Origin: Oleomonas cavernae
GTDB lineage: Bacteria; Pseudomonadota; Alphaproteobacteria; Zavarziniales; Zavarziniaceae
Reading direction: 5' to 3'
NCBI RefSeq assembly: GCF_003590945.1
Contig: NZ_QYUK01000011.1
Coordinates: 2,446,001-2,510,000, forward strand
Length of the DNA: 64,000 nt
Position 1 is the stretch's first letter, and each line of letters begins with the position of its first letter. The notes beneath the pieces are model-generated. The model was not told the DNA's origin and did not search any database. It saw nothing but the letters and a program-made list of their open reading frames with translations. The translations under genes and the position numbers were made by a program. Below are positions 17,791-37,021 of this stretch, piece by piece.

Positions 17791-17800
17791 GCGCGTCTCC

Positions 17801-17886
17801 CCCTGTCGTCATCCCGGCGAAGGCCGGGATCCATTGCGACATCGCGCGCTGGCCCAGAATGGATCCCGGCCTGCGCCGGGATGACG
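17801..17886. repeat. Inverted intergenic repeat GTCATCCCGGCGAAGGCCGGGATCCA, copy 1
   Basis: Between ipdC and echA20. The left arm at about 17806-17833 is mirrored by ATGGATCCCGGCCTGCGCCGGGATGACGA at about 17859-17885. The first 33 bases (17801-17833) are identical to 25041-25073. This is a widespread bacterial intergenic palindrome and can fold into a long hairpin in the operon RNA. Confidence 0.85.
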
Positions 17887-17896
17887 AGGGAGCTTG

Positions 17897-18802: not shown

Positions 18803-19596
18803 GCCGCTTCCCTCCGGTCGCCGGGCGGGTCGTCCTTGAAGGCCGTCGCGCGGATATTATGGGGATCCAGGACCGTGCGGATCACCTCGAGCTGTTCTGC
18901 CGTGGGTGCCGGGGTCTGGGTCGCCGTCGCCTTGCCTTCGAGCGGGAAGCCGGTGGCGGCCTGGACCTGCTCGAAGCTGATGCCGGGATGCAGGTGGCGA
19001 ACCCGGATCGCCTTGTTTGTCCCTAGGAAGTCTAGCACGGCCAGGTCGGTCACGATCAGGCGCAGATCGAGGAAACGGTCGGAACGGCCGTCCGTGAAGC
19101 GGGCGGCGTTGTGGCCGACCCCCGACACCATGTCGACCTCGCCCTCGACGAAGACGCGGGTCGAATGATTGGGCACGAACATCGAATTGATGTGGTTGGC
19201 GGTGTTGCCGGGAATGCCGCGCACGCCCAGCAGCATGGCCTTGGGCTTTTTCGCGTCCTTGCCGACGAAGCTGATGTTCTGCTGGCCATAGCGGTCGATC
19301 TGCACCGGCCCGGTCATGGCATGGCGGTGGCCGCGGTAGACGACGTCGAAGACGCGGGCATAGGGCATCCAGCCTTCGGCCTTGGGTACGTAGCCACCAC
19401 GCTTGCCCACCGGCACCGGCTCCTCGACCAGGTAGGCCTCGCCATCAGTCATCATCAATTCGGGCGCGAAGGTCGCCTTGGCGAGGCTTGCACCCAAGCG
19501 CGGGATCAGGCCGATGCCGGACGCCAGCACTTCGCCATTGCCGCGCCAGGCCTCGGCCGCAGCGGTGATGCACAGTTCTGCGAGGGTATAGGTCAT
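18799..19596 (-). CDS. ipdB: IpdB, beta subunit of the ring-C-opening CoA-transferase-fold hydrolase
   Basis: A 265-residue protein of the class I CoA-transferase beta-subunit fold. It has MTYTLAELCITAAAEAWRGNGEVLASGIGLIPRLGA at the start and GVRGIPGNTANHINSMFVPNHS and MVSGVGHN further on. IpdAB, despite the fold, acts as a COCHEA-CoA hydrolase that opens ring C. It follows ipdA directly and overlaps echA20 at its 3' end. Confidence 0.85.
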   Translation of the reverse strand: MTYTLAELCITAAAEAWRGNGEVLASGIGLIPRLGASLAKATFAPELMMTDGEAYLVEEPVPVGKRGGYVPKAEGWMPYARVFDVVYRGHRHAMTGPVQIDRYGQQNISFVGKDAKKPKAMLLGVRGIPGNTANHINSMFVPNHSTRVFVEGEVDMVSGVGHNAARFTDGRSDRFLDLRLIVTDLAVLDFLGTNKAIRVRHLHPGISFEQVQAATGFPLEGKATATQTPAPTAEQLEVIRTVLDPHNIRATAFKDDPPGDRREAA

Positions 19597-19608
19597 GTCC
19601 GTTCTCCC

Positions 19609-20489
19609 TCAGAACACCGGCAGGGGCAGCGTGGCCAGCTTCTCAGCGCCACCGGCCGCGGCCAGGTAGTCGTCGTGGCTGATGCCGTCGATGAAGCGGG
19701 CGCGCCAGGCGGCGAAACCGCCTTCGACATTGGCGGCCTCGTTGTAATCCTTCAGGTGCTTCAGGTCGAAGCCGTAGTCCGGGCCGCTCGACGTCGGGTG
19801 GGCGCCGAAGGGTACGTGGGCGACGCCGGTGATGCAGCTCCGCTCGACCAGGGAATGGCGCAAGGGGCTCAGGCCGCCCAACGCGGCCGTGCTGACCAGC
19901 CGGTCAGTGGTGACATAGGCCTTGTCGGCGGCGCGGCAGAACCATTCGTCGAAGAAGGGATCGGGGCCGTCACGATGGTGTTGCCCAGCTTGTCGGCGGC
20001 GTTCACGTGGACGATGGCGGCGTCGAGGGTCAGGGCCGGCACGGCGATCAGCAGTTCACCGTCGTCATAGGGGGAGCGGACGGTCTTCAAGTCCGGATGC
20101 AGGCGCTCGACATCGCTGCCGATGCCCGCCCGGCTGGGCAGGAAGGGCAGGCGCATAGCGGCGGCGCGCAGGCCCCATTGCAGCATGCCCTCGTCGATTT
20201 CGAAGGTCTCGAACGCACCCGCCTGGCGGGCGCTGCGGAAATGATTGTCGAGCGGGATCGAGTCGAGCGTGACGAAGCCGAAGACCAGCTTCCTGATCTT
20301 GCCCGCCGCGGCCAGCAGGCCGACATCGGGGCCGCCGTAGGAGACCACGGTCAGGTCCGTGATGTCGGTGCGCAGGATCTCGCGCACCACGGCCATGGGC
20401 TTGCGCCGGGCGCCCCAGCCGCCGACGCCTAAGGTCATGCCGCTGCGCAGGTTCGCGACGATGTCGGCAACGCTCAACCGCTTGTCCAT
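19609..20489 (-). CDS. ipdA: IpdA, alpha subunit of the ring-C-opening hydrolase (frame break near 19970)
   Basis: CoA-transferase alpha-subunit fold, 293 residues after repair, matching IpdA length. The N-terminal part MDKRLSVADIVANLRSGMTLGVGGWGARRKPMA carries the glycine-rich CoA loop. The frame changes near 19970, in the stretch read on the coding strand as GTGACGGCCCCGATCCC; one added G gives TGPDPFFDEWFCRAADKAYV and continues to the stop at 19609. The start at ATG 20489 follows GGGAGC. It sits just upstream of ipdB. As encoded here the protein would be truncated at about 230 residues, so this site needs checking first. Confidence 0.82.
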
Positions 20490-20526
20490 ACCTTGCTCCC
20501 ACACCCTGCCGGTTGAACGGCCAAGG

Positions 20527-22068
20527 TTACCGCAACATGAATTTCTGGACCTTGCCGCTGGCATTCAGCGGCAGGCTGTCCCGCACCTCGACGAAGCGCG
20601 GCGCCTTGTAGTTCGCCATGTTCGCCCGGCACCAGGTGATGAATTCCGCCGCGTCGATCGCCGCCCCCTTGGCCGGCACCAGGATCGCCTTGGCAACCTC
20701 GCCCATGCGGGCGTCGGGCACGCCGATGACGGCGGCCTGGGCGACATCGCGCCGGCTGAGGATGATGTTCTCGATCTCGGCGGGATAGCAGTTGAAGCCG
20801 CCGACGATGAACATGTCCTTCTTGCGATCGGTGATCTTGAGGTAGCCGCGTTCGTCGACCACGCCGACATCGCCGGTGTGCAGCCAACCTTGCGAATCGA
20901 TCGCCTCGCGCGTGGCCGCTTCGTTCTCGAAGTAACCGGCCATGACATTGAAGCCGCGCACCACCACCTCGCCCGCGGTGCCGGCGGGAACCGGATGGCC
21001 CGCCTCGTCGATACAGGCCAGCTCGATCCCGGGGATCGGCCGGCCGCAGGTATTGGCAATGGTCTGCGGGCTGTCATCGCGCACGCACATGGTCACCACC
21101 GGCGCCTCGGTCAGGCCATAGGCGGTCAGCACGGTCTCGAACTTCAGCTCGCTGAACATCCGCTCGATCAGCTCGACCGGCACTACCGCAGCCCCAGTCA
21201 CGGCCAGGCGCAGGGACGAGAGATCGCGGGTGCGGAAGCTGCCCTCGCCCAGGATCGACTGGTAGAGGGTGGGGGCGCCGGGCAGCACACTGACCCTGTC
21301 GATCTCGATCCGGGTGAGAATCCGGCCGACCTCGAACACCGGTTCGGGCAGGCAGGTGCAGCCGGCGATCAGGCAGGCCAGCCAGCCGGCCTTGTAACCG
21401 AAGGAGTGGAAGAAGGGATTGACCACCAGGTAGCGGTCGTCGGGTGCCAGGCCGACCACGCCGGCCCAGGTCTCGACCGTCGCCACGTTCTGGGCATGGG
21501 TGGAGACCACGCCCTTGGGCAGGCCCGTGGTGCCCGAGGTGAAGAGCATGTCGGACGGGTCTTGCGGCCGCACCGCCTCGTAGCGGGCCTCGGCCGTGCC
21601 CTCGTCCACCATCTCGGCCCCGCCCAGGAAATCGGCCCAGGAGAGATCGGCGCCGACCTCCCCGCGCAGGATGACGATGCGCTCCAGGTCCGGCACATCC
21701 TCGCCCGCCAGCATCGCGGGGTAGTCGAAATCGAGGAAGCCGCGCACGGCGAACAGCAGGCGGGCGCGGCTGGCGCGCAGGATCTGCGCCGCTTCCTTGC
21801 CCTTGAAGCGGGTGTTCAGCGGCACCATCACCCCGCCGACCGATTGCAGGCCGACGGTAGCGACGATCCATTCCGCCATGTTGGGCGCCCAGATGGCGAC
21901 CCGGTCGCCCGGCTCGATCCCAGCAGCGATGAAGGCACGCGCGGCGGTGCGGCGGGCCGTCTCGAGCGCCGCGAAGCTCAAGACTGCGCCGCCGTCCTCG
22001 ATCGCCGCGCGCTCGGGCCAGCGAGCCGCCGCGGCGATGACGCAGCCGGGTATGGTTGTGCCGGCCAT
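20527..22068 (-). CDS. fadD3: FadD3-like acyl-CoA synthetase, HIP-CoA ligase candidate
   Basis: An ATP-dependent acyl-CoA ligase (ANL superfamily), 513 residues. It has the P-loop FTSGTTGLPKGVVSTH near residue 170, the A5 motif TAYGLTEAP, GWLHTGDVG and the C-terminal catalytic lysine region NASGKVQKFMLR. FadD3 activates HIP, the propionate side product of ring A/B cleavage, and starts C/D-ring degradation. I prefer ATG 22068 (MAGTTIPGC), since GAGGG lies eight bases before it; an in-frame GTG at 22077 has no usable spacing. The position next to ipdA supports the role over a generic fatty-acid ligase. Confidence 0.82.
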   Translation of the reverse strand: MAGTTIPGCVIAAAARWPERAAIEDGGAVLSFAALETARRTAARAFIAAGIEPGDRVAIWAPNMAEWIVATVGLQSVGGVMVPLNTRFKGKEAAQILRASRARLLFAVRGFLDFDYPAMLAGEDVPDLERIVILRGEVGADLSWADFLGGAEMVDEGTAEARYEAVRPQDPSDMLFTSGTTGLPKGVVSTHAQNVATVETWAGVVGLAPDDRYLVVNPFFHSFGYKAGWLACLIAGCTCLPEPVFEVGRILTRIEIDRVSVLPGAPTLYQSILGEGSFRTRDLSSLRLAVTGAAVVPVELIERMFSELKFETVLTAYGLTEAPVVTMCVRDDSPQTIANTCGRPIPGIELACIDEAGHPVPAGTAGEVVVRGFNVMAGYFENEAATREAIDSQGWLHTGDVGVVDERGYLKITDRKKDMFIVGGFNCYPAEIENIILSRRDVAQAAVIGVPDARMGEVAKAILVPAKGAAIDAAEFITWCRANMANYKAPRFVEVRDSLPLNASGKVQKFMLR

Positions 22069-24233: not shown

Positions 24234-25019
24234 TCAGGCCACGAAATTGCAGTGGCAGGTGCCGATGCCCTGGATCGTCACGCCGATCGCATCCCCGGCC
24301 ACGACCGGGATCAGGGCGGCGAGCGAGCCCGAGAGGATGACCTCGCCGGCCTTCAGCGGGATGCCCTTGGCGCCCAGGGTGTTGGCCAGCCAGGCCACGG
24401 CATTGACCGGCGAATCGAGCGTCGCCGCCCCGGCCCCGGTGCCGACGATGCGGCCGTTCCTGGTGATCACCATGCCGGCCAGGGCCAGATCGAGACTTTC
24501 GGGCGAGACCAAGCGGTCGCCCAGCACGAAGACCCCGCACGAGGCATTGTCGGCCACCGTGTCCTCGATCTTGATCTTCCAGTCAGTGATGCGGGAATCG
24601 ACGATCTCCAGGCAGGCCATCACGCCTTCGGTCGCTTGGAGGACCTGGGCATTGGTGATTCCGGGACCGATCAGGTCACGCTTCAGCACGAAGGCGATCT
24701 CGCCCTCGGCCCGGGGCTGGATCATGGCCGACATGGGAATGTCGCCACGCTCGGGCACGATCATGTCGGCCAGGAGGATGCCGAAATCGGGCTGGGTCAC
24801 GCCCAGCATCGACTGCACCGGGCGCGAGGTGACGCCGATCTTCTTGCCCACGATCTTGTTCGCCCCGACCAGGCGGCGGCCGACGAATTCGGTCTGGATG
24901 GCGTAGGCATCGTCGACCGTCAGGCCCAGGCCGCGATCGGTCAGCGGCGACAAGGTCCGGCGCCCGATCAGCGCCGTGTAAAGTTCCAGCCCCAGCTCTT
25001 CAATCTTGCTCTGGTCCAT
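24234..25019 (-). CDS. hsaE: HsaE-like 2-hydroxyhexa-2,4-dienoate hydratase
   Basis: A 261-residue hydratase of the 2-oxopent-4-enoate hydratase / fumarylacetoacetase-like family. It shows GKKIGVTSRPVQSMLGV, PRAEGEIAFVLKRDL (metal-binding glutamates near 105-110) and DSRITDWKIKIEDTVADNASCG. In steroid degradation HsaE hydrates the C6 dienol acid released from ring A by HsaD. The aldolase and aldehyde dehydrogenase (hsaF, hsaG) that would follow are not in this window. Confidence 0.85.
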   Translation of the reverse strand: MDQSKIEELGLELYTALIGRRTLSPLTDRGLGLTVDDAYAIQTEFVGRRLVGANKIVGKKIGVTSRPVQSMLGVTQPDFGILLADMIVPERGDIPMSAMIQPRAEGEIAFVLKRDLIGPGITNAQVLQATEGVMACLEIVDSRITDWKIKIEDTVADNASCGVFVLGDRLVSPESLDLALAGMVITRNGRIVGTGAGAATLDSPVNAVAWLANTLGAKGIPLKAGEVILSGSLAALIPVVAGDAIGVTIQGIGTCHCNFVA

Positions 25020-25040
25020 CGCGCCTACTCTCTACAGGGA

Positions 25041-25187
25041 CCCTGTCGTCATCCCGGCGAAGGCCGGGATCCACGGCTATGGCAATACGGGTCTGCCCCA
25101 GTGCTCCACGACAGTGGATCCCGGCCTTCGCCGGGATGACGATGCGAGTTGTGTCTGCACCCGGGATCCCGAAGCCGGGATCCCGGG
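25041..25187. repeat. Inverted intergenic repeat, copy 2, plus a second palindrome
   Basis: The arm at 25046-25073 (CGTCATCCCGGCGAAGGCCG...) is mirrored at 25114-25142. The first 33 bases match 17801-17833 exactly. A further perfect palindrome, CCCGGGATCCCG / CGGGATCCCGGG, follows at 25160-25187. It fills most of the 181-base gap between hsaE and the DUF1329 gene. Confidence 0.85.
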
Positions 25188-25200
25188 AAGATCTATGTGA

Positions 25201-26580
25201 TTAAACGCCCTTGCGCTTCAGCTCCTCGGCCGTGTAATCGGAGAGCTTGCGGCCGCCCTGGTTGAACTTGGGTTTGTCCGACACCTCGTTGGTGAGGCGG
25301 TCGGCCATGTAGGCGCCCGAGATCAGGTCGTGATAGCAGGTGATGCGGGTGACGAAGACCTGCGCCGCATAGTCGTAGGACACGGTGTTGAGCGCAAAGC
25401 GGTAGAGCTGCTGACGCGCGTCGTACATGTCGGCCATCAGGGGCTGGCCCGAATCCTCCTCGACATAGAGGGTGCGGGCGGCATAGATGTGGCGGATGCC
25501 GGGTTTCAGCTTGGCCTTCAGCACCCAGACGCGGTGCAGTTCCCAGCGCACGAATTCCGGGTTGAGGTGCGACTTGCCCAGCAGGTCCTTGTACTTGATA
25601 TCCGGGCTGTCGACCTCGTAGTTGTTGTAGGGGACATAGAATTCCTTCTTGCCCACCAGTTCCCAGTCATAGCGCCGGGGCGACTGGGTCCAAAGGCGGG
25701 TGTCGTCCACGGTGTGGAAGCCGCCCGGCCCGAGCGGATAGTCGCCGGCCACTTCCGGCACCTGCTTCACCCGGCGGGTGCCCGGGATGTACTGATAGGA
25801 CTGGGTGGGGCTCTTCTCGAAGTCCCACCATTCGCGTACCAGGGTAATGGTGCCGCGCTCGCGTTCGGGCTTGGTGGTCGAGCGGAACAGGAAGGCGGAT
25901 TCGATGACCCCGGTGGAGCGCTGCACATTCGGGTCGAAAGGCGGCGCATAGATGTCCCACTGCTGGCCGCCCCAGGCGATGTTGCCGTCGGGGTAGACCA
26001 CCGCCTCGTCATAGGTGCCGCGCTCGGTGAAAGCCTTGGGCGCCGTGATCGAGGACCAGATCGACTCCAGGCCCGACTTGGGGAACGGGAAGGCGCAGCC
26101 GCCCAACACGTTGGTCACCCCCTCGCCGCTGGGGGTGAGTTCCGCGTTCTGGGCGTTCAGCTTGTACTGTTCGTGCGTCCAGTCCGAGAAGCGGAAATCG
26201 CGATGGCACGGGTAGACGTTCATCTTGAACGTCGCCCCGTATTTCTCGAACATCGCCTGCTGGCCGGCCGACAGCTTGTCGGCATACTGCTTGTAGTTCT
26301 GCGCGGTGATGGTGAACAGGGGCTTGTCGCCGGCATAGGGGCTGACCAGCGGCTTGCCCGTGCCGGCGAAGGAAACGCCGTCCGGCGTGCCCAGCCACTT
26401 GCCGGCCCAGGGCACGATGGAACCGTCGGCATTGCCTTCCTTGACGGCGCCGACCGGGGTCAGCGACGTGCCGAGCTTGGCGATCTCGTCGGCTGTCGCC
26501 TTGGCCCAGCCAAGGCGGGGGCCGGCGGCGGCGACGAGCGCGGCGGCACCGACACCCTTGACGAAAGTCCTGCGATCCAT
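25201..26580 (-). CDS. DUF1329 periplasmic protein with Tat signal
   Basis: A DUF1329-family protein of 459 residues. The N-terminus MDRRTFVKGVGAAALVAAAG has the RRxFxK pattern of a twin-arginine signal, with likely cleavage after AKA, so the protein is folded before export to the periplasm. ATG 26580 follows AGGAGG at good spacing. DUF1329 genes regularly accompany DUF1302, YCF48-like and MMPL genes in proteobacteria that grow on hydrophobic substrates; the family is, to my memory, related to the LolA/LolB lipid-carrier fold. A carrier between outer and inner membrane is a reasonable hypothesis, not shown here. Confidence 0.85.
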   Translation of the reverse strand: MDRRTFVKGVGAAALVAAAGPRLGWAKATADEIAKLGTSLTPVGAVKEGNADGSIVPWAGKWLGTPDGVSFAGTGKPLVSPYAGDKPLFTITAQNYKQYADKLSAGQQAMFEKYGATFKMNVYPCHRDFRFSDWTHEQYKLNAQNAELTPSGEGVTNVLGGCAFPFPKSGLESIWSSITAPKAFTERGTYDEAVVYPDGNIAWGGQQWDIYAPPFDPNVQRSTGVIESAFLFRSTTKPERERGTITLVREWWDFEKSPTQSYQYIPGTRRVKQVPEVAGDYPLGPGGFHTVDDTRLWTQSPRRYDWELVGKKEFYVPYNNYEVDSPDIKYKDLLGKSHLNPEFVRWELHRVWVLKAKLKPGIRHIYAARTLYVEEDSGQPLMADMYDARQQLYRFALNTVSYDYAAQVFVTRITCYHDLISGAYMADRLTNEVSDKPKFNQGGRKLSDYTAEELKRKGV

Positions 26581-26608
26581 CGCTATCCTCCTTGTATGTT
26601 TTCTGTTC

Positions 26609-28642
26609 TCAGAACGTGTATTTGACGGTGGCGACGACATAGTCGCGGTCGGCCAGGGGCCGCTCGGTGCGGTGATAGGAACCGAGAAAGGCGCTGTACA
26701 TGACCGACAGTTCCAGATTGTTCAGGTAGCGGAACTTGACTCCGCTGGCGAGGCGCACATCGCCGTTGCCGGTCAAGGCGCCCAGCGAGCCGTTGTAGGC
26801 CGGCGTACCGATCGCCTGGCCGAAGATGATGGGAACCGACATGTCCCAGCCGCCCGGGAAGATGTCGGTATAGCCGAGCTCGACGATGCCCTGATAGCCC
26901 CAGGAACTGGTGTCGTTGGTCAGCTCGTCGAACTTGTTGATGTTGTTGCCCTGGCCGTCCTTCAGGGGCTGACCGTTGACGTCGTAGAGATAGAGCGTCT
27001 CGTGGTCGATCACCCGGTTGTAGCTGACCTCGAAGACCACGGTGATCGAATCCCAGAAATCCGAGGCGCCGCCGACGTAGAGGCCGTTGAGATTGGCCTG
27101 GATCACGTCGCCCAGTACCGGCTGGGGCGCGGTAATGCCGGAAATATTGCCGTCGACCAGCATGGGGGCATCCTGGCGATAGGCGAAGTCGAAGCCGAAA
27201 TTGATCGGCCCGATCGAGGTCGAGGCGCTGGCGCCATAGAGCTTTACGTCCTCGAAATATTTGGCGACGTAGTTGTAGGGCAGATAAAGGGGCGCCATGA
27301 CAGCGACCACGGCGTCGGCGCCATCGGCTATCTGCTGTTCCAGGTTGCCGCAGATGCCCAGCACACCGCAGGCCTGGATGAGAGCGCTGCCGACCGTGCT
27401 CGCCCGCGTCGGATCGGTCTGGACATGGGAGATATCAAAGACCGGCAGCGGATTCTTCTCGTGATATTTCAGGAAGTAGAAGCCGGTGTTGAGGCCGTCG
27501 GTCACCGCATAAGTGAAGCCGACGCCGAACTGCCCCGTGTTGTTGGGCTTCTTCTCGCCCATGTAGTTGATGTCGAAACGGCCGGTCGCGGGATCGCCGA
27601 TGCCGGCCAGATTGTTGCTGATGATATCGGACAGGATCTGCGAGACCTGCGCCGGCAGGCCGAGTTGGGTACACTCCGGGATCGAGGCGCTGAGCGTGCA
27701 GGCATTGGCGTAGTGGCCGATGATGTCGGGGAAGGGATTGGTCGAGCCATAGGCGAATTCCGACCCCGGCCCGATCAGGTCGGCGCGGCTGAAATAGCTC
27801 CCCACCCCGTCGAGCTGGTTGTAATCCCAGTCGGGCTGATAATAGGCGACCACGCTGAGCCGGTCGGTCAAGCCCCAGTTGACCGACGCCTGGGGTATGG
27901 GCAGGAGGATGTCCTTCACCTCGGCACCCGGGGTATTGGCCCTCGTGGTATCCACCACCGCCTGGGACAGCGAGATATTGCCGAAGAACAGGCTTTCGCC
28001 CCAGGCCACCACCTGGTTGCCGACGCGAACGCTGAGCGAGGTATCGAAGACGTCGAAGGTGCCATAGGCGAAGGCGTCGAGCAGGCGGAAGCGGCCGCCG
28101 TTGGCATAACGCGTCTGGCCGGGGAAATGATCGGCGGCGCCGCCCCTCTTGTTGATGCCGTCGGGATAGTCGACCTCGTTCGAGTTCGCCATGTGATAGA
28201 CGAAATCGTAGTAGCCGTTGCCGCTCAGCTTGAAGCCGTAGTCTTCGTATTTGAAGTTCGCCTCGGCCAGGGCGCTGAAGCCGTTGGTGAAGAAGTCGCC
28301 CTTCTCGAAGTTCCGGTTGGGATCGTCGAAATTGTAACTGCGCGGCGTGTTGGTCGACTGATAGTAGGGCTGGAGGAACGGCACTTGCGGCACCAGGACG
28401 ATATAGGCCGCATCGGTGTCGGGCGAGAACGAGCGCGGGCTCGCATCCTCGGCCCGGATACCGGCCTGGTAGGTCGTGGTCACATTGACCGACAGTTGCG
28501 CGCCGCTGTCGAAATCATAGACCTCCGACAGGGCCGAGGTGGTGCCGGCCAGGACGCCGGCGATGACGCTGGCGCGCAGCGCGACCTGGCTCACCGATTG
28601 CCGCAACCGCCTGTCGCCTAAGCGATACCCCTTGCTTGCCAT
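26609..28642 (-). CDS. DUF1302 outer-membrane beta-barrel protein
   Basis: A 677-residue protein of the DUF1302 family. A basic N-terminus and hydrophobic stretch (residues 20-38, ending TTSALS) form a signal peptide. Many alternating aromatic/hydrophobic strands follow, and the chain ends in VKYTF, with the terminal phenylalanine expected for BAM-dependent outer-membrane proteins. It precedes DUF1329 by 28 bases in the same operon. The likely role is passage or binding of a hydrophobic substrate, here presumably steroid, at the outer membrane. Two palindromes lie in its upstream region. Confidence 0.85.
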   Translation of the reverse strand: MASKGYRLGDRRLRQSVSQVALRASVIAGVLAGTTSALSEVYDFDSGAQLSVNVTTTYQAGIRAEDASPRSFSPDTDAAYIVLVPQVPFLQPYYQSTNTPRSYNFDDPNRNFEKGDFFTNGFSALAEANFKYEDYGFKLSGNGYYDFVYHMANSNEVDYPDGINKRGGAADHFPGQTRYANGGRFRLLDAFAYGTFDVFDTSLSVRVGNQVVAWGESLFFGNISLSQAVVDTTRANTPGAEVKDILLPIPQASVNWGLTDRLSVVAYYQPDWDYNQLDGVGSYFSRADLIGPGSEFAYGSTNPFPDIIGHYANACTLSASIPECTQLGLPAQVSQILSDIISNNLAGIGDPATGRFDINYMGEKKPNNTGQFGVGFTYAVTDGLNTGFYFLKYHEKNPLPVFDISHVQTDPTRASTVGSALIQACGVLGICGNLEQQIADGADAVVAVMAPLYLPYNYVAKYFEDVKLYGASASTSIGPINFGFDFAYRQDAPMLVDGNISGITAPQPVLGDVIQANLNGLYVGGASDFWDSITVVFEVSYNRVIDHETLYLYDVNGQPLKDGQGNNINKFDELTNDTSSWGYQGIVELGYTDIFPGGWDMSVPIIFGQAIGTPAYNGSLGALTGNGDVRLASGVKFRYLNNLELSVMYSAFLGSYHRTERPLADRDYVVATVKYTF

Positions 28643-28738
28643 GTGACCTTCGCCCCCGATTTGTGCCGCACCTTTGGCGGCGTCAGGCGCGCCGCTGTGC
28701 CGGCGCTGCCCCTTTATCGCTCGATCAAGTCGCCGTTG

Positions 28739-28789
28739 GTCTCTTCTGCCAAGAGACTTTTTGCACCATGGTGGCGAATATCCGCCACC
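28739..28789. promoter_or_regulatory. Two adjacent palindromes upstream of the DUF1302 gene
   Basis: GTCTCTT-CTGCC-AAGAGAC (28739-28757) is followed by five T on the plus strand. Next to it, GGTGGCG-AATATC-CGCCACC occupies 28770-28789. They lie 97-147 bases before the DUF1302 start and 27 bases past the hsaD stop. No plus-strand gene needs a terminator here, so operator sites for a regulator of DUF1302-DUF1329 are the better reading. An mRNA-processing hairpin is the alternative. Confidence 0.45.
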
Positions 28790-28815
28790 CCGGCACGGCT
28801 CCGACGGGTACGCGC

Positions 28816-29664
28816 TTAAGCCACATCCCTGGCCAGGAACGCCAGGATCTCACTGTTGAAGTAGTCACGGTCCTCGATCATCACCCAGTGGCCGCACTGG
28901 TTGGAGATGATCACCTTGGCCTGCGGGACACGCTCCAGCAGGATCTGGGCATGGGCCACCGGCAGGAACTTGTCGTGGCTGCCCCAAAAGGCCAGCACCG
29001 GGCACTTGATCTCGCCCAGGCGATCGGCATAGACGCCGACCTTCATGGTGGCGTAGACGCCCATGGGCTGCTCCAACGCCACCGGCCAGCGCTCGGCGAC
29101 CGCCTCGTCGGTAACGTGGCGCGGGTCATGCACGAGATGGGCGAGGAGATCCTTGAAGCCGTCGAGCTCGTAGGGCCGGGTCGAGATGAACTGCATCATC
29201 CGCAGCACGCCGGCCATGGTGAAGGCGTATTCCTGGGGTTCCTGCAGGCCGCCCGGCGCCATCAGCACCAGCTTGGGCACCATGTCGGGATAGGTCAGGG
29301 TGAACTGCAGGGCGATTGCGCCGCCCAGCGAATTGCCCACCGGCACGACCTTGGTGATGCCGAGGCTGTCGAGCAGCGCCTTGATGGCGGCGACATGCAG
29401 GTCGGTCGAATATTCCAGGTCCTCGGGCTTGGACGACAGGCCGTAGCCCAGGTAGTCGGGCACCAGGGCATGGAAGCCGGCGCCGGCCACCGCGGGCATG
29501 TTGCCCTTGAAATTGGAGTAACCGCTCGCACCGGGGCCTGAGCCATGCAGGAAGAGGATGGTCGGCTTGGCCGCGCTGCGCGTGCCGGCCTCGTGGTAGT
29601 GCAGCTTGCGCCCCGCCTCGAGTTCCAGGTACTTGCCGACCGGTATCGCCGTCTTCTCGCTCAC
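28816..29664 (-). CDS. hsaD: HsaD-like meta-cleavage product hydrolase
   Basis: An alpha/beta hydrolase of 282 residues. The catalytic triad is visible: S112 (VGNSLGGA), D231 (GSHDKFLP) and H259 (QCGHWVMIE), with the oxyanion segment LHGSGPGASG near residue 40. This pattern is that of C-C bond hydrolases (HsaD, BphD, TesD). HsaD splits the ring-A meta-cleavage product (DSHA) into HIP and a hydroxyhexadienoate. I choose GTG 29664, behind GGAGGG. It is followed by the DUF1302 operon. Confidence 0.85.
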   Translation of the reverse strand: MSEKTAIPVGKYLELEAGRKLHYHEAGTRSAAKPTILFLHGSGPGASGYSNFKGNMPAVAGAGFHALVPDYLGYGLSSKPEDLEYSTDLHVAAIKALLDSLGITKVVPVGNSLGGAIALQFTLTYPDMVPKLVLMAPGGLQEPQEYAFTMAGVLRMMQFISTRPYELDGFKDLLAHLVHDPRHVTDEAVAERWPVALEQPMGVYATMKVGVYADRLGEIKCPVLAFWGSHDKFLPVAHAQILLERVPQAKVIISNQCGHWVMIEDRDYFNSEILAFLARDVA

Positions 29665-29792
29665 GCCTTCCCTCCACTGGATTTCGGGTTGTCCCCGACT
29701 TGGGTTGAACATCGCCCGAGGGGCGACGGCCCGCATGGTCCGTACAGACTAGGCAGCCCAAACCCGTGGAAATCCGCCGTTCCTATTCATGG

Positions 29793-32207
29793 TTAACGGC
29801 CCGACACGATGGCCGCATCGGCCGCCGCCGCACCCGCTTTTTCCTTGGCGAAGCCCTTTTCCGGCAGCAGCCAGGCGGCCAGGGCGGGGAGCAGGAAAAT
29901 CGCCCCCAGCACATTCACCAGGAACATGAAGGACAGCAGCAAGCCCATGTCGGCCTGGAACTTCAGCGCCGAGAAAGCCCAGGTGCCGACGCCCACCGCC
30001 ATGGTGACGGCGGTGAACAGGGCGCAGGTGCCGCGCTGCTTCATGGCCTCGTAGAAGGCCTGGCGCACGCCCTGCCCCTCGTGGCGCATCTGGTGGATCA
30101 TCCGCTCGTAGATGTAGATGCCGTAGTCGACGCCCACGCCCACGCCGAGCGCGATCACCGGCAGGGTCGAGACCTTGAGCCCGATGCCGAGCTTGGCCAT
30201 CAGCGCGTTGCAGAAGATCGAGACGATGGTCAGCGGCACGATGATGCAGACCACCGCCTCCCACGACCGGAAGGTCAGGAAGCACAGCAGCGAGATCGCG
30301 CCGAAGATCGACAGCAGCATTTCCAGCTCGGCCTCCTCGACCGCCTGGTTGGTGGCCGCGATCACGCCGATATTGCCGCTGGCCATGCGGAAGGCGACGT
30401 TGGGCGTCTGGTCGCCGGCGATGAACTTCTGGATCTCCTCGACCACATGGGCGACCAGGGCGCCGTCGTGGTTCTTCAGGAAGATATCGACCTTCATGGC
30501 CTTGCAGCCTTCGGTGTTCAGGCCGATGTCGGGATTGTAGCCATAGCCGCCGACCGCGAGCCCATTGGAATCGCGCGGCAGGTTGGCCCAGCGCGGGTTG
30601 CCCTCGTTCATGCCGGCGATGACCATCTTGCCGATGGCCGGCACGGTCAGCACCGACTGCACGCCCGAGATGCCCCGGGCGAACAGGTCGAAGCGATCGA
30701 CCGCCGTCATCACCGAATGGTCGAGGCAGGCCTCGTTGAAGCCCGTGGTCTCGACGATCACGGTCAGGATGTCGGTGCCGATGTCGTAACGCGACAGGAT
30801 CGCGCCGTTGTCGACATTGTAGCGGTCGCCCGGCCACAGCTCGGGCGCACCCTGGCCGACGTCGCCGGTCTTCAGGCCGCGGGCATCGATGGCGGCGAAG
30901 ACCGACAGCACGGCGGCGATGGCGAAGGCGATGGCGGCGGGCTTGCGCAGGGCAAGGCGCGAGAGCATCCACCACGAGCGCCGCACGTCTTCGCCGTCGT
31001 CGACCGTGTGGGCACCCCGCTTTGCCGATTTCTCGAGGCTGGTATAGGACAGCAGCACAGGCAGGATCAGCTTGTTGGTCGCGATCATCAGCATCACGCC
31101 CATCGAGGCGGTCATGCCCAGTTCGCGCACGATGTCGATCTGGATGCGCATGATCACCAGGAAGCCCAGGCCGTTGGTGATCAGGGCCAGGGCGCCGGGC
31201 ACGAACAGTTGCTGGAAGGCCTGGCGCGAGGCCTCGACCGGTTCGGCCCCAGCCAGCGACGCCTGCTTCCAGGCATTGGTCATCTGCACGGCATGGCTGA
31301 CGCCGATCGAGAAGATCAGGAACGGCACCAGGATCGAGATCGGATCGATGCCGGCGCCGACCATGGGCAGCAGGCCGCCCAGCCAGATCACCGGCAGCAG
31401 GGCGACCGCCAGCGACAGGAAGGTGAGCTTCACCGAGCGGCAGTAGAGGTACAGCAGCAGGCCGGTGATCGCGAACGAGATCAGGAAGAAGGCCATGACG
31501 CCCAGCAGGCCGTCGACGATCGAGCCGACGATCATGACGAAGCCGATGACGTTGACCTCGATGTTCTGGTTCTCGTACTTGGCGCGCATCTCGTCGAGCT
31601 TGTGCGCCAGCTCGTAGTAATTGACCTGGATACGCTCGCCCGCGACGTTCTCCTGGATCTCGAACATGATCATGGCGTCGCGGCCGTCGTTGCCGACCAG
31701 GCGGCCGATGATGCCGGCGTCGCCCACGTTGCGGCGGACCTGGTCGAGTTCGGCCGGCGTCGCGTTGAAGGTCTCGGGGATGATCGGAGCGCCGACGAAG
31801 CCTTCCTCGGTGATCTTGGTATAGCGCTGGCTGGGCGAGAAGATCGAGGTTACACGGGTGCGATCGACATGGGGAATGAAGTAGACCTCGTTGGCGAGGT
31901 TGCCCATCGCGGTCATGAATTCCTTGTTGTAGAGATCGCCCTCACCCTTCCAGTGAATGTTCAGCACCACCCGGTTATGGCCGGGGAAGATCAGGGCGTA
32001 TTTGGCGAAGGCCTGCATGAAGGGGTGATCGAACGGGATCAGCTTGATGAAGCCCGGGTCGAGCTGGACGTTGCGCGCCTCGTAGCCCAGGAAGCCGGTG
32101 ATCGCGATCGCCAGGGCCACCACCAGAACGCGGAAGCGCAGCAGCAGGTTCGAACAGGTCTCGACCAGGCGTTGCGAGAGGGATGCGCTGTGGGTCGTGG
32201 TCGCCAT
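29793..32207 (-). CDS. MMPL/RND-family inner-membrane transporter
   Basis: An 804-residue efflux-pump-like protein of the RND superfamily, HAE3/MMPL-like branch, with the two-fold layout: TM1 at residues 28-45, a large periplasmic loop, a cluster of five helices at about 230-390, then TM7 near 420, a second loop and a last cluster at about 625-790. It shows VGVGVDYGIYIYERM and FSIGVSHAVQMTNAW in the two halves. The gene begins one base after the YCF48-like stop and is coupled to it. The same gene pair recurs next to DUF1302/DUF1329 in proteobacterial lipid- and steroid-degradation loci, which points to inner-membrane transfer of the substrate. Confidence 0.85.
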   Translation of the reverse strand: MATTTHSASLSQRLVETCSNLLLRFRVLVVALAIAITGFLGYEARNVQLDPGFIKLIPFDHPFMQAFAKYALIFPGHNRVVLNIHWKGEGDLYNKEFMTAMGNLANEVYFIPHVDRTRVTSIFSPSQRYTKITEEGFVGAPIIPETFNATPAELDQVRRNVGDAGIIGRLVGNDGRDAMIMFEIQENVAGERIQVNYYELAHKLDEMRAKYENQNIEVNVIGFVMIVGSIVDGLLGVMAFFLISFAITGLLLYLYCRSVKLTFLSLAVALLPVIWLGGLLPMVGAGIDPISILVPFLIFSIGVSHAVQMTNAWKQASLAGAEPVEASRQAFQQLFVPGALALITNGLGFLVIMRIQIDIVRELGMTASMGVMLMIATNKLILPVLLSYTSLEKSAKRGAHTVDDGEDVRRSWWMLSRLALRKPAAIAFAIAAVLSVFAAIDARGLKTGDVGQGAPELWPGDRYNVDNGAILSRYDIGTDILTVIVETTGFNEACLDHSVMTAVDRFDLFARGISGVQSVLTVPAIGKMVIAGMNEGNPRWANLPRDSNGLAVGGYGYNPDIGLNTEGCKAMKVDIFLKNHDGALVAHVVEEIQKFIAGDQTPNVAFRMASGNIGVIAATNQAVEEAELEMLLSIFGAISLLCFLTFRSWEAVVCIIVPLTIVSIFCNALMAKLGIGLKVSTLPVIALGVGVGVDYGIYIYERMIHQMRHEGQGVRQAFYEAMKQRGTCALFTAVTMAVGVGTWAFSALKFQADMGLLLSFMFLVNVLGAIFLLPALAAWLLPEKGFAKEKAGAAAADAAIVSGR

Positions 32208-32208
32208 C

Positions 32209-33213
32209 TTACTGCCCCCCTGCCAAGGCGGCCACCGGCCGGCCCAGGGTAATCTCGGAAATGCCTTTTTCGCCGCCGGTCAGGAGGCGCCCCGGCGCCA
32301 GTTCGACACCGGCCACGAAGGCCTCGCGCCCGCCCGAACGTTCAATGCGGAAGGTGGCCCCGCCGTCGGCCGACACCATCACCGTGCCGCCCTGGCCCAG
32401 CAGGACCAGCTTGCCGTCGGCCAGCAGGACATGGCCGAAGAACGATGCCTCGGTCCCGGTCGCAACCTCGCCCCAGGTGGCGCCGAAATCCTCGCTGCGG
32501 AAAACATGGCCCAGCATGCCGTAGATGACCCAGCGGGCATCCGACAGGCGCACCACGCCGTAGAGCGAGCCGTTGTAGTCGATCTTCATCGGCGTCCAGG
32601 TCTGGCCGCCGTCCGGCGAGCGCTGGGCCTGCGCCATCTCGCCCGCCGCCATCATGCGCCCGTCCTGGGACGAACAGGAGACCGCGTTCAGGTGCGGCCC
32701 GTCGGGCAGGTCGATCGGCACGGCCTCGAAGCTCTTGCCGGCATCGCGCGACACCAGCAGGCGGCCGAAACTGCCCGAGACGAAGACCTGGCCGTTCTGG
32801 CCGGCGCAGATCGAAAACAGCGGATCGGAATATTCCTTCTCGAAGCGCACCGGCGCCCAGGTGTCGCCGCGATCCTCGCTGCGCAGGATCAGGCCGTCGT
32901 GGCCGACCGCCAGGGCGATCCGATCGTCGACGAAGGCGACCTGGGTCAGGGTCTGCTCGACCCGAGCCACCTCGGCATTGCCGTTGACCTTGGCATCGCG
33001 CCAGCTGGCCGCGCGATCGTCGCTGACCAGGATATGGCCGCTTTCGCCGACGGCGACGATCCGCTGGCCGGCCATGGCCAGGCCGTTGATGCGCAGCCGG
33101 TCGGCCTGGGTCGCGGTGGCCGGGAATTCAGGCAGAGACCGGGGATAGAAGGCATAGGCAGCGACGACGGCCACAAAGACCGCCATCAAGATTCCGAGCG
33201 CGCGATTGGCCAT
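32209..33213 (-). CDS. YCF48/BNR-type beta-propeller, membrane-anchored
   Basis: A 334-residue protein with one N-terminal transmembrane segment (residues 5-22) and a periplasmic domain of repeated W/F-GxDGGxTW-type blades (DDRAASWRDAK, EDRGDTWAPV, DAGKSFEAV, DGGQTWTPM, EDFGATWGEV, DGGATFRIE). The family is named for the photosystem II assembly factor YCF48, but in proteobacteria it accompanies MMPL transporters. Here it is coupled to the MMPL gene. A scaffold or adaptor for that transporter is likely. There is nothing photosynthetic nearby. Confidence 0.83.
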   Translation of the reverse strand: MANRALGILMAVFVAVVAAYAFYPRSLPEFPATATQADRLRINGLAMAGQRIVAVGESGHILVSDDRAASWRDAKVNGNAEVARVEQTLTQVAFVDDRIALAVGHDGLILRSEDRGDTWAPVRFEKEYSDPLFSICAGQNGQVFVSGSFGRLLVSRDAGKSFEAVPIDLPDGPHLNAVSCSSQDGRMMAAGEMAQAQRSPDGGQTWTPMKIDYNGSLYGVVRLSDARWVIYGMLGHVFRSEDFGATWGEVATGTEASFFGHVLLADGKLVLLGQGGTVMVSADGGATFRIERSGGREAFVAGVELAPGRLLTGGEKGISEITLGRPVAALAGGQ

Positions 33214-33457: not shown

Positions 33458-34336
33458 TCAACCGCCCAGGCGGTGGCCCCAATGGCTGGGCAAGGTGGTT
33501 TCGAAGGCCTGGTGATTGGTCCAGTCCTTGACCACCCCGCCCCAGCCGTATTCCAGGGCAAAGCCGCCGGGCGTGAAGATGTAGAACGACACCATGTCGT
33601 CGTTCACATGCCGTCCCAGGCCCATCAATACCGGCACCTGGTGTGCAGAAACCCGGTCGAGCGCACGGCCGACCTCGTCGAGGCTGTTGACCTCGATCAT
33701 GACGTGGATGCAGCCGGCGGGGCTGGGCATTTCGGCCAGGGCCAACGAATGCTGGCGCGGGTTGCAGTGATAGAACTGGATGCGCATGGGCGGCATGCCC
33801 GGCGCCATCGAGATCTTCAGAATGTCGGACAGGCCGAAGCCACCGACCTGCGTCCAGAACTGGTGCGCGGCATCGAATTCGCCCATGGCCGGCAGCACGA
33901 CATGGCCCAGGCCCATGCCCTCGGTCACGAAGCCCGAGACGCCGATGGGCGAGATGAAGCGGCCGAAATCGGAAATCGGGCCCCAGTAGACCTCGTGGCG
34001 GTTGCCGACCGGATCCTGGAAGCTGAAAAAGGCCTGGACATGGCGGATGGCGGCGTCCTCGGCGCTGCCATCCTCGACCGCCACGCCGGCAGCGACCAGG
34101 TGGTCCCGGGCCGCCGTGAAGGCCGGCTCGTCCTGCAATTCCCAGCCCGAGGCGATCAGGCCGTCCTGCTCGGCGGGCAGGATCAGGAAGCGGAACTGAC
34201 GGCTGTCCATCTTCAGGTGCAGGCGGCCATCGGGCGCATCGATCGCCATGAGGCCCAGCACTTCAGTCGCGAACTGCCGCCATTTTTCCTTGTCGGTCGA
34301 CCCGACGACGACGTAACCCAACTCACGGATGTGCAC
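33458..34336 (-). CDS. hsaC: HsaC-like extradiol ring-cleavage dioxygenase
   Basis: A type I extradiol dioxygenase of 292 residues with two glyoxalase-fold modules. The Fe(II) ligands are at H145 (GLGHVVLP), H211 (CIHVMIEV) and E262 (ALEYGWGG), followed by the C-terminal extension. HsaC cleaves the catechol 3,4-DHSA between C4 and C5 of ring A. It starts at GTG 34336 behind GGGAGGG. The 244 bases between its stop and the YCF48-like start hold no gene that I can see. Confidence 0.87.
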   Translation of the reverse strand: MHIRELGYVVVGSTDKEKWRQFATEVLGLMAIDAPDGRLHLKMDSRQFRFLILPAEQDGLIASGWELQDEPAFTAARDHLVAAGVAVEDGSAEDAAIRHVQAFFSFQDPVGNRHEVYWGPISDFGRFISPIGVSGFVTEGMGLGHVVLPAMGEFDAAHQFWTQVGGFGLSDILKISMAPGMPPMRIQFYHCNPRQHSLALAEMPSPAGCIHVMIEVNSLDEVGRALDRVSAHQVPVLMGLGRHVNDDMVSFYIFTPGGFALEYGWGGVVKDWTNHQAFETTLPSHWGHRLGG

Positions 34337-34562: not shown

Positions 34563-35615
34563 TTATTCCGGGAAGCTGACCTTGACCTTGGGCGTCAGCG
34601 GCAGCGACTGGCAGGCCAGGATCCAGCCTTCGGCCAGGTCGTTCTTGTCCAGGATGCTGTTCTTGGACATGCGGATGTCGCCCTCTTCGAGCTTGCACAT
34701 GCAGGCACTGCAACTGCCCATCCGGCAGGAATAGGGCGCATCGACGCCGGCCTCGAGCAGCACGTCGAGCAGGTGGCGTGAGGCCGGCCAGTCGACCGTG
34801 TGGGTGGCGCCGTCCAGCAGGACTTCGACCGCGGTGTGCGGCTGGCCCTCGGGCGACGCGGCCGCTTCCGCCTCGATCGCGGCGACGATGGCGACCGGAT
34901 CGCCGTCGAGCGAGATGAACTTCTCCAGATGGATGCGCGAACGCTCGACCTTCAGGCTTTGCAGGGCCGCCACGACACCGTCCATGAACGGTGCCGGGCC
35001 GCAGATGAAGGCTTCGTGCGTCGCCGCATAAGGCTTCACCAGCCCGGCGAGCTGCTCGACCGTCGGCAGGCCCTGCACGCTTTCCAGCCAGTGCAGCACG
35101 GTGAGACGGTCGGCGTGGCGCGCCGCCAGATCGCGCAGCTCCTGCGCGAAAATAACCGAACGCTCGTCGCGGTTGGCATAGACGAAGGCGATCTTGGCCC
35201 TGCCCTTGAGCAGGGCGGATTTCAGGATCGACATGACCGGGGTGACGCCGCTGCCGCCGGCGAACAGCATCAGGTCGCGATCGAGGTTCTTGGGCACAAA
35301 CACGCCGGCCGGGGGCAGCACCTCGACCGTGTCGCCGACATTCAGGTGGTCGCAGATCCAGTTGGAACCGATGCCGCCGTTCACCCGCTTGACCGAAACC
35401 TTGGGCGCCTCGCCGGTGAAGGGCGAGGAGGCCAGGGAGTAGCAGCGCGCGACATGGCCTTCCGCGTCGCCGATGCGCAGGGTCAGGAACTGCCCGGGCT
35501 TGTAGGCGAAACGCTCGTGCAGGTCGGCCGGCACCGCGAAGACGATCGACTTCGCATCCGGGGTCTCGGTGATGACCTCGGCGACCTTGAGGGAGTGATA
35601 CTGCATCGGCTGCAT
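34563..35615 (-). CDS. kshB: KshB-like ferredoxin-NAD(P)H reductase (3-ketosteroid 9-alpha-hydroxylase reductase)
   Basis: A class IA reductase of 350 residues in the order FAD domain, NAD domain, plant-type [2Fe-2S] domain. It shows RCYSLASSPF (FAD), LFAGGSGVTPVMSILKSAL (NAD), and near the C-terminus CRMGSCSACMCKLEEG with a distant fourth cysteine in ILACQSL. KshB passes electrons to the Rieske oxygenase KshA, which opens ring B. KshA itself is not in the window, so a different partner, for example a phenylacetyl-CoA- or alkane-type oxygenase, cannot be excluded. The start at 35615 is chosen from the protein end; the ribosome site is weak, and ATG 35606 is possible. Confidence 0.78.
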   Translation of the reverse strand: MQPMQYHSLKVAEVITETPDAKSIVFAVPADLHERFAYKPGQFLTLRIGDAEGHVARCYSLASSPFTGEAPKVSVKRVNGGIGSNWICDHLNVGDTVEVLPPAGVFVPKNLDRDLMLFAGGSGVTPVMSILKSALLKGRAKIAFVYANRDERSVIFAQELRDLAARHADRLTVLHWLESVQGLPTVEQLAGLVKPYAATHEAFICGPAPFMDGVVAALQSLKVERSRIHLEKFISLDGDPVAIVAAIEAEAAASPEGQPHTAVEVLLDGATHTVDWPASRHLLDVLLEAGVDAPYSCRMGSCSACMCKLEEGDIRMSKNSILDKNDLAEGWILACQSLPLTPKVKVSFPE

Positions 35616-35682
35616 TAAAGGCCCGCTATCCGGGGCCGCACCTTGCGGGCGGCCCATCACATGGTTCGAACAGGGGCGAGGA

Positions 35683-36882
35683 TCAGATGAAGAAGTCGGT
35701 GTTGTCGAGCCCCAACATCACCCCACCCCAGTTGCGGCCGATCGAGTCCATCTGGTTGGCCGCATGGGCCCGCGCGGTGGAAATGTCGGCGAAAATTCGC
35801 GCGAAGGGCTTGCTGTGGAACACCGCGGCGCCGCCGCCGGCCTTGAACAGGCGCTGAGCCAGGTTCGAGCAGCGCTCGGGCACTTCGGCCGACTGGAAGC
35901 GATACATCATGCGCTGCGGGATTTCGGTGAATTCGCCGCGTGCCGCCTGGTCGTACATCACGTCCATGTTGCGGCGCAGAACCAGCTTCATCTCGTCGAT
36001 CGCGGCCACCGTCTCGGCACAGACGAGCTGGGCCGAACCGTCTTCCGCGGTCTTGGCACCGGTCACCGTGGTGCGCTTGGCACCATATTCCAGGAAGGCG
36101 TCCAGCATCGCCTGCAGGGCGCCGATCGCCGCGGTCGAGACCGAGCGGATGAAGATCTGGGCAAACGGCATGCGGAACAACGAGGCCGTGTTGATCGCAT
36201 TGCCCGGGCTGTTGCACATCAGCCCGTCGGCCATCTTGTGGGTGCGATATTCCGGCACGAAGACGTTCTTCACCACGATGTCGTGGCTGCCGGTGCCGCG
36301 CAGGCCATGAGTGTCCCAGGTATCGACGATCTCGTAGTCCTTGCGCGGCAACAGGAAGGTGCGGGCGTCCAGGTTGCCCGACTCAGGGTCGACCAGGCCC
36401 CCTAAGAAAATCCAGTCGCAATGCTCGCAACCGCTCGAAAAGCGCCAGCGGCCGTTGAAGGTGTAACCACCTTCGACCGGCATGGCCTTGCCCGTCATCA
36501 TGTAGGTGGACGAGATCAGGACAGAGGTATCCTTGCCCCAGACATCCTGCCCCGCCTGATCGTCGAACAGCGCCATCTGCCAGTTGTGGCAGCCGATCAC
36601 GCCGTAGCACCAGGCGGCCGACATGTCGCCCTCGGCCAGCGCCATCAGCACGTCGTAGAAGACATTGGGATGCATCTCGTAGCCGCCCCAGCGCTTGGGC
36701 TGAAGCACCCGGAACAGGCCGGCGGCCTGCATTTCGGCGATGGTTTCCGCCGGGAGACGGCGCTGCCGGCCGGATTCCTCGGCGCGCGCCTTAAGGGCCG
36801 GGATCAACGCCCGCGCCCGCCGCAGGATTTCCTCCGCCGTCGGCACGATTGCGATGATTTCAGCTTCGCTGCTACCGTCCAT
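35683..36882 (-). CDS. hsaA: HsaA-like flavin-dependent monooxygenase (3-HSA hydroxylase)
   Basis: A 399-residue group D flavin monooxygenase with the acyl-CoA dehydrogenase fold. It shows LQPKRWGGYEMHP, GRWRFSSGCEHCDWIFLGG, and DTWDTHGLRGTGSHDIVVKNVFVP. HsaA hydroxylates the phenolic seco-steroid 3-HSA to the catechol that HsaC cleaves, using reduced flavin from HsaB. ATG 36882 follows GAGG at eight bases. It lies upstream of kshB and hsaC in one operon. The matching reductase gene is found at 41027 on the other strand. Confidence 0.85.
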   Translation of the reverse strand: MDGSSEAEIIAIVPTAEEILRRARALIPALKARAEESGRQRRLPAETIAEMQAAGLFRVLQPKRWGGYEMHPNVFYDVLMALAEGDMSAAWCYGVIGCHNWQMALFDDQAGQDVWGKDTSVLISSTYMMTGKAMPVEGGYTFNGRWRFSSGCEHCDWIFLGGLVDPESGNLDARTFLLPRKDYEIVDTWDTHGLRGTGSHDIVVKNVFVPEYRTHKMADGLMCNSPGNAINTASLFRMPFAQIFIRSVSTAAIGALQAMLDAFLEYGAKRTTVTGAKTAEDGSAQLVCAETVAAIDEMKLVLRRNMDVMYDQAARGEFTEIPQRMMYRFQSAEVPERCSNLAQRLFKAGGGAAVFHSKPFARIFADISTARAHAANQMDSIGRNWGGVMLGLDNTDFFI

Positions 36883-37021
36883 AGCCAGTCCTCGATCTTT
36901 CCGGTCCCCTGCCGACGCCAACACCGCCGGCCTTTAACTGTTGTGGCGGATGATGGTCGCCGGGGTCGGGGGCTACATCGTCTAACCGGACTAACCGAGG
37001 ATTCCCGCGCCAATGGGGCTG

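Follow-up and report, generated by a model that had tools for sequence, protein, structure and literature searches.

A steroid-linked four-part protein set in a catabolic operon of Oleomonas cavernae, a candidate for steroid transport across the Gram-negative envelope

In actinobacteria, steroids are imported by Mce4, a dedicated system driven by an ATP-binding cassette (ABC) and found beside steroid catabolism. No counterpart of Mce4 has been identified in other taxa (PMC4810484), and steroid uptake in proteobacteria is largely unknown (PMC8399759, PMC4810484). Here we describe a stretch of 64,000 nucleotides from the alphaproteobacterium Oleomonas cavernae (contig NZ_QYUK01000011.1, positions 2,446,001 to 2,510,000; hereafter the window) that carries an operon whose IpdA-, IpdB-, IpdC- and EchA20-like genes mark the pathway as a steroid one, and that encodes in the same operon four proteins of the DUF1302, DUF1329, YCF48-like and MMPL families. 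An earlier note on the sequence had proposed that these four proteins, along with an SCP2 protein at the operon end, relay steroid from the outer membrane to the cytosol. Such a set would do work like that of Mce4 with proteins that are unrelated to it.

The four families make up the component list of AmeABCD from Castellaniella defragrans, which is described as one tetrapartite system of a DUF1302 barrel, a DUF1329 protein of the LolA superfamily, a YCF48-like periplasmic protein and an HAE3-type RND protein (PMC6394551), and by Pfam this list is complete in the window. The ame genes, like those of the window, lie in a catabolic island for a hydrophobic substrate (PMC6394551). AmeABCD differs in that it concerns monoterpenes and is encoded by a compact four-gene cassette, whereas the window genes are split by hsaD, stand in another order (YCF48-MMPL-hsaD-DUF1302-DUF1329) and belong to steroid-linked branches. 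Because the conserved contiguous order is absent, we regard the window set as a variant within this known but little-studied kind and not as AmeABCD itself. The same four families are also represented by PP_0765, PP_0766, PP_2018 and PP_2019 of Pseudomonas putida, all of which are needed on Tween 20 and show co-fitness, and which were described in 2024, with AlphaFold-predicted DUF1302-DUF1329, DUF1329-MMPL and YCF48-MMPL contacts, as a 'novel hypothesized substrate transport system' (PMC10866462); this set, however, concerns a fatty-acid ester, is spread over two separate loci and is not steroid-linked. DUF1302, DUF1329 and YCF48 genes (with MMPL in ORM2a) likewise lie near hydrocarbon catabolism in the nanopod/phn genes of Delftia and in the 'Nanopod' cluster of the benzene-degrading ORM2a (PMC3110197, PMC3958437, PMC13101534), but there the substrates are polycyclic aromatic hydrocarbons or benzene, not steroid, and the genes are read as serving vesicle formation or benzene transport. 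BstABC of Methylococcus resembles the window set as a bacterial sterol-linked MMPL/RND protein with periplasmic and outer-membrane partners, but BstB and BstC have other folds and the system is proposed to carry home-made sterols to the outer membrane (PMC10942540); the BstA model finds the window MMPL at E 4e-5 only. The relay, offered in the earlier note as its own inference, is thus partly anticipated by the published AmeABCD system and P. putida contacts. Its steroid form was not found: no paper in the searchable literature, outside which subscription papers and preprints fall, linked DUF1302, DUF1329 or YCF48 to steroids, and a sentence on an RND gene of P. stutzeri Chol1 was the only steroid link. 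What is new is the steroid specificity of the four-part set.

Each of the four proteins falls in a steroid-linked clade, and these clades extend across proteobacterial classes. When named genomes were searched with the aligned window MMPL and its nearest paralogue, irrespective of gene context, 80 loci were returned, and their neighbourhoods were annotated using the window genes. The window MMPL falls in a 34-row clade (Shimodaira-Hasegawa approximate likelihood-ratio test, SH-aLRT, 100) with members from Cupriavidus, Pandoraea, Collimonas, Thauera, Azoarcus, Solimonas, Marinobacter, Pseudomonas, Shewanella and Endozoicomonas. At least two steroid genes of the window's set adjoin 25 of the 33 other clade members, whereas outside the clade this holds for 0 of 47 loci (Fisher p 4e-14), none of which has even one steroid gene over threshold beside it. 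YCF48 forms a steroid-only clade of 29 rows (SH-aLRT 98) with the same membership as the MMPL clade, while DUF1329 and DUF1302 fall in clades of 10 and 13 rows (SH-aLRT 100 each) that hold only copies from steroid-clade loci and paralogues from the window's own genome. One such paralogous DUF1302/DUF1329 pair (locus L012) adjoins a second HsaA-like gene, and a DUF1302 paralogue of the steroid type, with 76% identity to the window protein, is the direct neighbour of an SBF-like gene from the superfamily of bile-acid symporters (L015:5058-8168). Protein distances correlate for all six pairs of the four proteins (r 0.70-0.90, Mantel p 0.001, 37 loci), a correlation that is partly due to common species ancestry. 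The steroid loci also depart from the cassette order, with DUF1329 immediately 5' of YCF48 in 0 of 33 external steroid-clade loci versus 38 of 47 others. An occurrence of the genes mostly away from any hydrophobic-substrate pathway, which the earlier note had named as an outcome that would speak against its idea, was not seen for the steroid-type copies, all four proteins lying in steroid-linked clades.

The set recurs as a unit elsewhere. In a sister species (genome G032), the order YCF48-MMPL-HsaD-DUF1302-DUF1329-HsaE is identical and the MMPL is 82% identical, which excludes a chance arrangement. In the plasmid collection, pVa1 of Vibrio alfacsensis (NZ_CP032095.1:1-34010) carries consecutive DUF1329-DUF1302-YCF48-MMPL genes adjoining genes for an hsaE-type hydratase, an aldolase, an acetaldehyde dehydrogenase, a FadD3-family ligase and Rieske proteins; all four of its transport proteins are nearest to steroid-clade members (for the MMPL, 77% versus 50% identity to the best other). 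The plasmid also encodes a START-domain protein and has the look of a plasmid-borne steroid kit. The four genes might instead be passengers, generic hydrophobe transport genes sitting by chance in a catabolic operon, as the wide spread of DUF1302 and DUF1329 and their strong amplification in the window's own genome could suggest; set against steroid-only clades for four proteins over several proteobacterial lineages, and against the gene order of the sister species, this explanation is extremely improbable.

The same lineages bear on a second explanation, in which the proteins serve to transport lipids or to form outer-membrane vesicles as a response to a hydrophobic substrate and affect steroid uptake only indirectly. 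It draws on Delftia, in which disruption of the YCF48 gene phnL left strongly fewer phenanthrene-induced vesicles (PMC3958437) and nanopods contain DUF1302 and DUF1329 proteins (PMC3110197), and it would suit the LolA-type fold of DUF1329. Envelope remodelling nevertheless leaves unexplained why distinct protein lineages follow the steroid pathway, and a lipid role would need no substrate-specific barrel, so that we hold it to be very unlikely.

The link to steroid was recovered in an independent set of 397 complete genomes of the phylum, the window's genome counted, whose data were not used to define the clades. IpdB at least 54% identical to that of the window occurred in 10 of these genomes including its own (54-86% in the nine others), and MMPL at least 50% identical in 7; tree placement put five of the new MMPLs inside the steroid clade and one, from genome G078, in the sister clade. 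Steroid-type MMPL was present in 6 of the 397 genomes including that of the window, and IpdB in all 6 (association p 3e-10 even with G078 counted as a miss). The G078 protein (51% identical) was considered as a steroid-type exception and rejected as such, as it groups with loci L068-L071 in the sister clade and its genome holds no IpdB match. In a further comparison of 299 genomes, with DUF1329 and MMPL samples matched through shared genomes, 46 carried full-length DUF1329, and the same 46, with no others, carried this MMPL lineage (E <= 1e-60).

Structural models of the two outer parts support the compartments to which they had been assigned, an outer-membrane barrel for DUF1302 and a periplasmic protein for DUF1329. 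The AlphaFold2 model of DUF1302 (predicted local distance difference test, pLDDT, 76.7) has OprD/Occ channels and a BenF-like porin as its closest folds, matching an OprD/Occ-type monomeric barrel with Z 22.7 and 3.5 Å over 309-315 residues at ~10% identity, a likeness of fold only: by sequence, Pfam at E<=0.001 gave DUF1302 and no OprD family. FadL-type channels were absent from the fifty best structural matches and are left out of the argument. The DUF1329 model (pLDDT 86.8, predicted template modelling score 0.86) comprises a LolA-type open half-barrel at residues 186-479, with Z 21.0 against P. gingivalis LolA3 (9tp6), 19.6 against the solved DUF1329 structure 4z48 and 8.4 against P. aeruginosa LolA, the N-terminal ~140 residues standing outside these matches. 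Its true start is most likely a Met 20 codons inside the called open reading frame (MDRRTFVKG, ~26580), and an overlap with DUF1302 is therefore not required. The twin-Arg motif at this start bears out the earlier claim of Tat export for the window protein, but as a genus feature only: the signal is found in this genus (the window and loci L012 and L125) and separately in divergent cassettes of the window's own genome (L011, L027, L032), while steroid-clade relatives carry mostly Sec-type signals. Tat export was accordingly rejected as part of the mechanism.

At the inner membrane, YCF48 is probably the partner of MMPL, as it stands immediately 5' of MMPL in 72 of the 80 related loci. The best NCBIfam match of the window MMPL is the HAE3 model TIGR00921 (E 2.3e-42, 145 bits, below the cut-off of 351.9); it also has a weak match to the Sterol-sensing domain PF12349 (27.1 bits versus a cut-off of 22.3) and weak matches only among PDB sequences, with HpnN at 3e-6. 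The presumed proton-relay position in transmembrane segment (TM) 4 is Ser-His and not acidic in 89 of 89 lineage sequences, and the Asp-Tyr of TM10 is retained.

Gene counts suggest that one YCF48-MMPL engine may serve several DUF1302/DUF1329 front ends, because copies of the latter exceed those of MMPL. In seven genomes, the DUF1329:MMPL counts are 11:3, 11:3, 17:4, 7:3, 6:1, 5:3 and 1:1. The genome of the window (5.6 Mb) holds ~30 DUF1302 and ~26 DUF1329 genes, and six divergent cassettes with an MMPL of their own; of the close type, there are ~17 DUF1329 genes but two MMPLs, namely that of the steroid operon and a solitary copy (C11:790064, L014) whose YCF48 relative lies far off at C11:4097908, much as the DUF pair and the YCF48-MMPL pair are split in P. 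putida (PMC10866462). Among the loci of this genome (L009-L037) are unlinked DUF1302/DUF1329 pairs near P450s, an mpaB/rubber-oxygenase-like protein, hydrolases and AraC regulators. An identical DUF1302 and an identical YCF48 each occur twice (L009 with L028, L026 with L030), and truncated MMPL genes stand at contig ends (contig C10), reflecting either recent duplications or assembly breaks. Elsewhere, G078 encodes a tandem DUF1302-DUF1329-DUF1329-DUF1302-DUF1329-YCF48-MMPL array (L129, C3:9000-28000), with several front ends beside one engine, and in G082 (L118-L121, L124) a single steroid-type MMPL is accompanied by six DUF1329 genes of the steroid clade, of which five are solitary, near an alkyl-sulfatase-like protein, TauD and others, with no DUF1302 detected there.

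We propose, with a probability of about 0.6, that the four window genes encode a steroid-dedicated version of an AmeABCD-type trans-envelope system that moves steroid inward via DUF1302, DUF1329 and YCF48-MMPL. That they encode a steroid-linked trans-envelope transport system, whatever its direction, is in our judgement highly probable. Steroid would cross the outer membrane via the DUF1302 barrel and be received by DUF1329 in its LolA-like pocket; DUF1329 would then act as a periplasmic shuttle and dock on the YCF48-MMPL complex, a contact suggested by the P. putida homologues (PMC10866462). This complex would then spend the proton gradient to load steroid into the inner membrane or carry it across, whereupon membrane and cytosolic ring-opening enzymes would take over. 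While component list, steroid linkage and folds are shown by the data above, we infer which ligand is carried, which contacts are made and in which direction transport runs. Uptake is the direction that we somewhat favour because mutants of homologues fail on the substrate, namely on Tween 20 in P. putida (PMC10866462), on monoterpene hydrocarbons for AmeABCD (PMC6394551) and on phenanthrene for a Delftia DUF1329 gene (as cited in PMC13101534), because the modelled DUF1302 barrel resembles substrate-specific uptake channels, and because front ends multiply, an excess that, by analogy, would be expected where many nutrient receptors share one engine.

Several points weigh against this proposal. 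Bacterial RND proteins usually pump outward. Cells deleted for AmeABCD grew less on monoterpene hydrocarbons and accumulated more Nile Red, which the authors read as the loss of an exporter (PMC6394551); for Chol1, bile-acid efflux was proposed as the role of the RND gene in its steroid cluster (PMC8399759). A common fold alone does not establish function. The fetched flanks contain no DUF1329 at 25 of the 33 external steroid-clade loci, so that the outer parts may lie elsewhere. Finally, 4 of the 10 IpdB genomes are without a steroid-type MMPL, two (G361, G062) having generic MMPL and DUF1329 copies and two (G116, G232) neither DUF1329 nor this MMPL lineage. The set is therefore no general requirement of steroid catabolism. 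An alternative uptake route is at hand in the TonB-dependent receptors reported in sphingomonads (PMC8399759).

The outward habit of RND proteins and the published interpretations in favour of efflux keep export a serious alternative, in which the set would remove steroid or toxic ring-opened intermediates from the membrane or periplasm and so protect the degrading cell. The RND superfamily membership and HAE3 similarity of MMPL fit such a role, and the interleaving with hsaC, hsaD and hsaE would suit export of meta-cleavage intermediates. An exporter sits less easily with a set that has neither an adaptor nor a TolC-type channel, with a barrel that resembles uptake channels, with homologue mutants that chiefly fail to grow on the substrate and with many front ends per engine, and on balance we consider efflux unlikely. 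If transport is inward, the copy numbers would also accommodate a more tentative and rather doubtful extension, a division of labour like that of TonB, in which one or a few YCF48-MMPL engines, driven by protons, would supply a large number of exchangeable DUF1302/DUF1329 front ends, each specific to a different hydrophobic nutrient, and in which the steroid operon has a dedicated engine.

The families and coordinates given for the four transport proteins and SCP2 in the earlier note are correct by Pfam (Table 1), and its statement that the transport genes interleave with hsaC-, hsaD- and hsaE-like genes agrees with their arrangement. The genes are transcribed in the order HsaA-like, ferredoxin reductase, HsaC-like, YCF48, MMPL, HsaD-like, DUF1302, DUF1329 and HsaE-like, followed 3' on the same strand by genes for a short-chain dehydrogenase/reductase (SDR), an amidohydrolase, an acyl-CoA ligase, the Ipd/EchA20-like proteins, beta-oxidation enzymes and SCP2.

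Table 1. Transport genes and neighbouring steroid genes of the window
Feature	Position	Strand	Basis
HsaA-like monooxygenase	35683-36924	-	Pfam
Ferredoxin reductase	34563-35660	-	Pfam
HsaC-like extradiol dioxygenase, 5' of YCF48	33458-34336	-	TIGR03213 / NF045631
YCF48-like (BNR/Asp-box) propeller, one N-terminal membrane/signal segment	32209-33213	-	PSII_BNR/YCF48 PF14870 3.4e-14, PF15902
MMPL/RND (HAE3-like) inner-membrane transporter, steroid-linked lineage	29793-32207	-	PF03176 1.2e-18
HsaD-like meta-cleavage hydrolase, between MMPL and DUF1302	28816-29736	-	best model NF045632 HsaD
DUF1302 outer-membrane beta-barrel	26609-28642	-	PF06980 1.4e-135; C-terminal Phe
DUF1329 periplasmic protein	25201-26640	-	PF07044 2.6e-107 and LolA_like PF17131; twin-Arg motif MDRRTFVKG
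HsaE-like 2-hydroxypentadienoate hydratase, 3' of DUF1329	24234-25019	-	TIGR03220
IpdC, EchA20, IpdB, IpdA-like C/D-ring genes	16705-20564	-	Pfam; IpdA frameshifted
SCP2 domain protein	7843-8145	-	PF02036 4.7e-21

The hsaC, hsaD and hsaE labels are reasonable, if partly drawn from gene context. The HsaC-like protein scores 301 bits with the biphenyl-2,3-diol dioxygenase model TIGR03213 and 277 bits with HsaC NF045631, both below cut-off; the HsaD-like protein reaches 186 bits (cut-off 400), and the HsaE-like protein 404.8 bits with the 2-oxopent-4-enoate hydratase model (cut-off 408.8). The reading frames of YCF48, MMPL, DUF1302 and DUF1329 are all intact. Three enzyme genes are each split over two frames, namely SDR (8200-8981, break at ~8390), acyl-CoA dehydrogenase (8996-10176, ~9905) and IpdA-like (19609-20564, ~19970); relatives have intact copies, and sequencing or assembly error is a likelier cause than decay. 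Parts of the layout return in other loci, with the ferredoxin reductase/HsaA pair flanking YCF48-MMPL divergently in L045, L046, L051, L052, L059 and L134 and the DUF1329-HsaE adjacency repeated in G255 (L126) and G032 (L125). On the same strand, a PhaC-type polyhydroxyalkanoate synthase gene (37893-39647) lies immediately 5' of the steroid operon. The SCP2 gene, on the same strand as the transport genes and 16 kb downstream, had been proposed as the cytosolic end of the relay. No SCP2 homologue was found in any other fetched locus examined, steroid or non-steroid, and SCP2 was rejected as a conserved part, so that of the proposed envelope-to-cytoplasm relay it is the DUF1302-DUF1329-YCF48/MMPL set, for a hydrophobic substrate that here would be a steroid, that is supported.

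The four proteins are strong candidates for steroid transport machinery across the Gram-negative envelope. A lineage of four proteins that tracks the steroid pathway across proteobacterial classes provides a short list of genes for deletion, as well as markers by which steroid-linked copies can be told apart from the numerous generic DUF1302 and DUF1329 genes, and the steroid set offers a clean system in which to settle the disputed transport direction of the whole AmeABCD kind. Should several front ends share one engine, this would give a common explanation for a large class of hydrocarbon-degradation loci and, if the TonB-like arrangement holds true, the set would constitute a bacterial importer system of the RND type.

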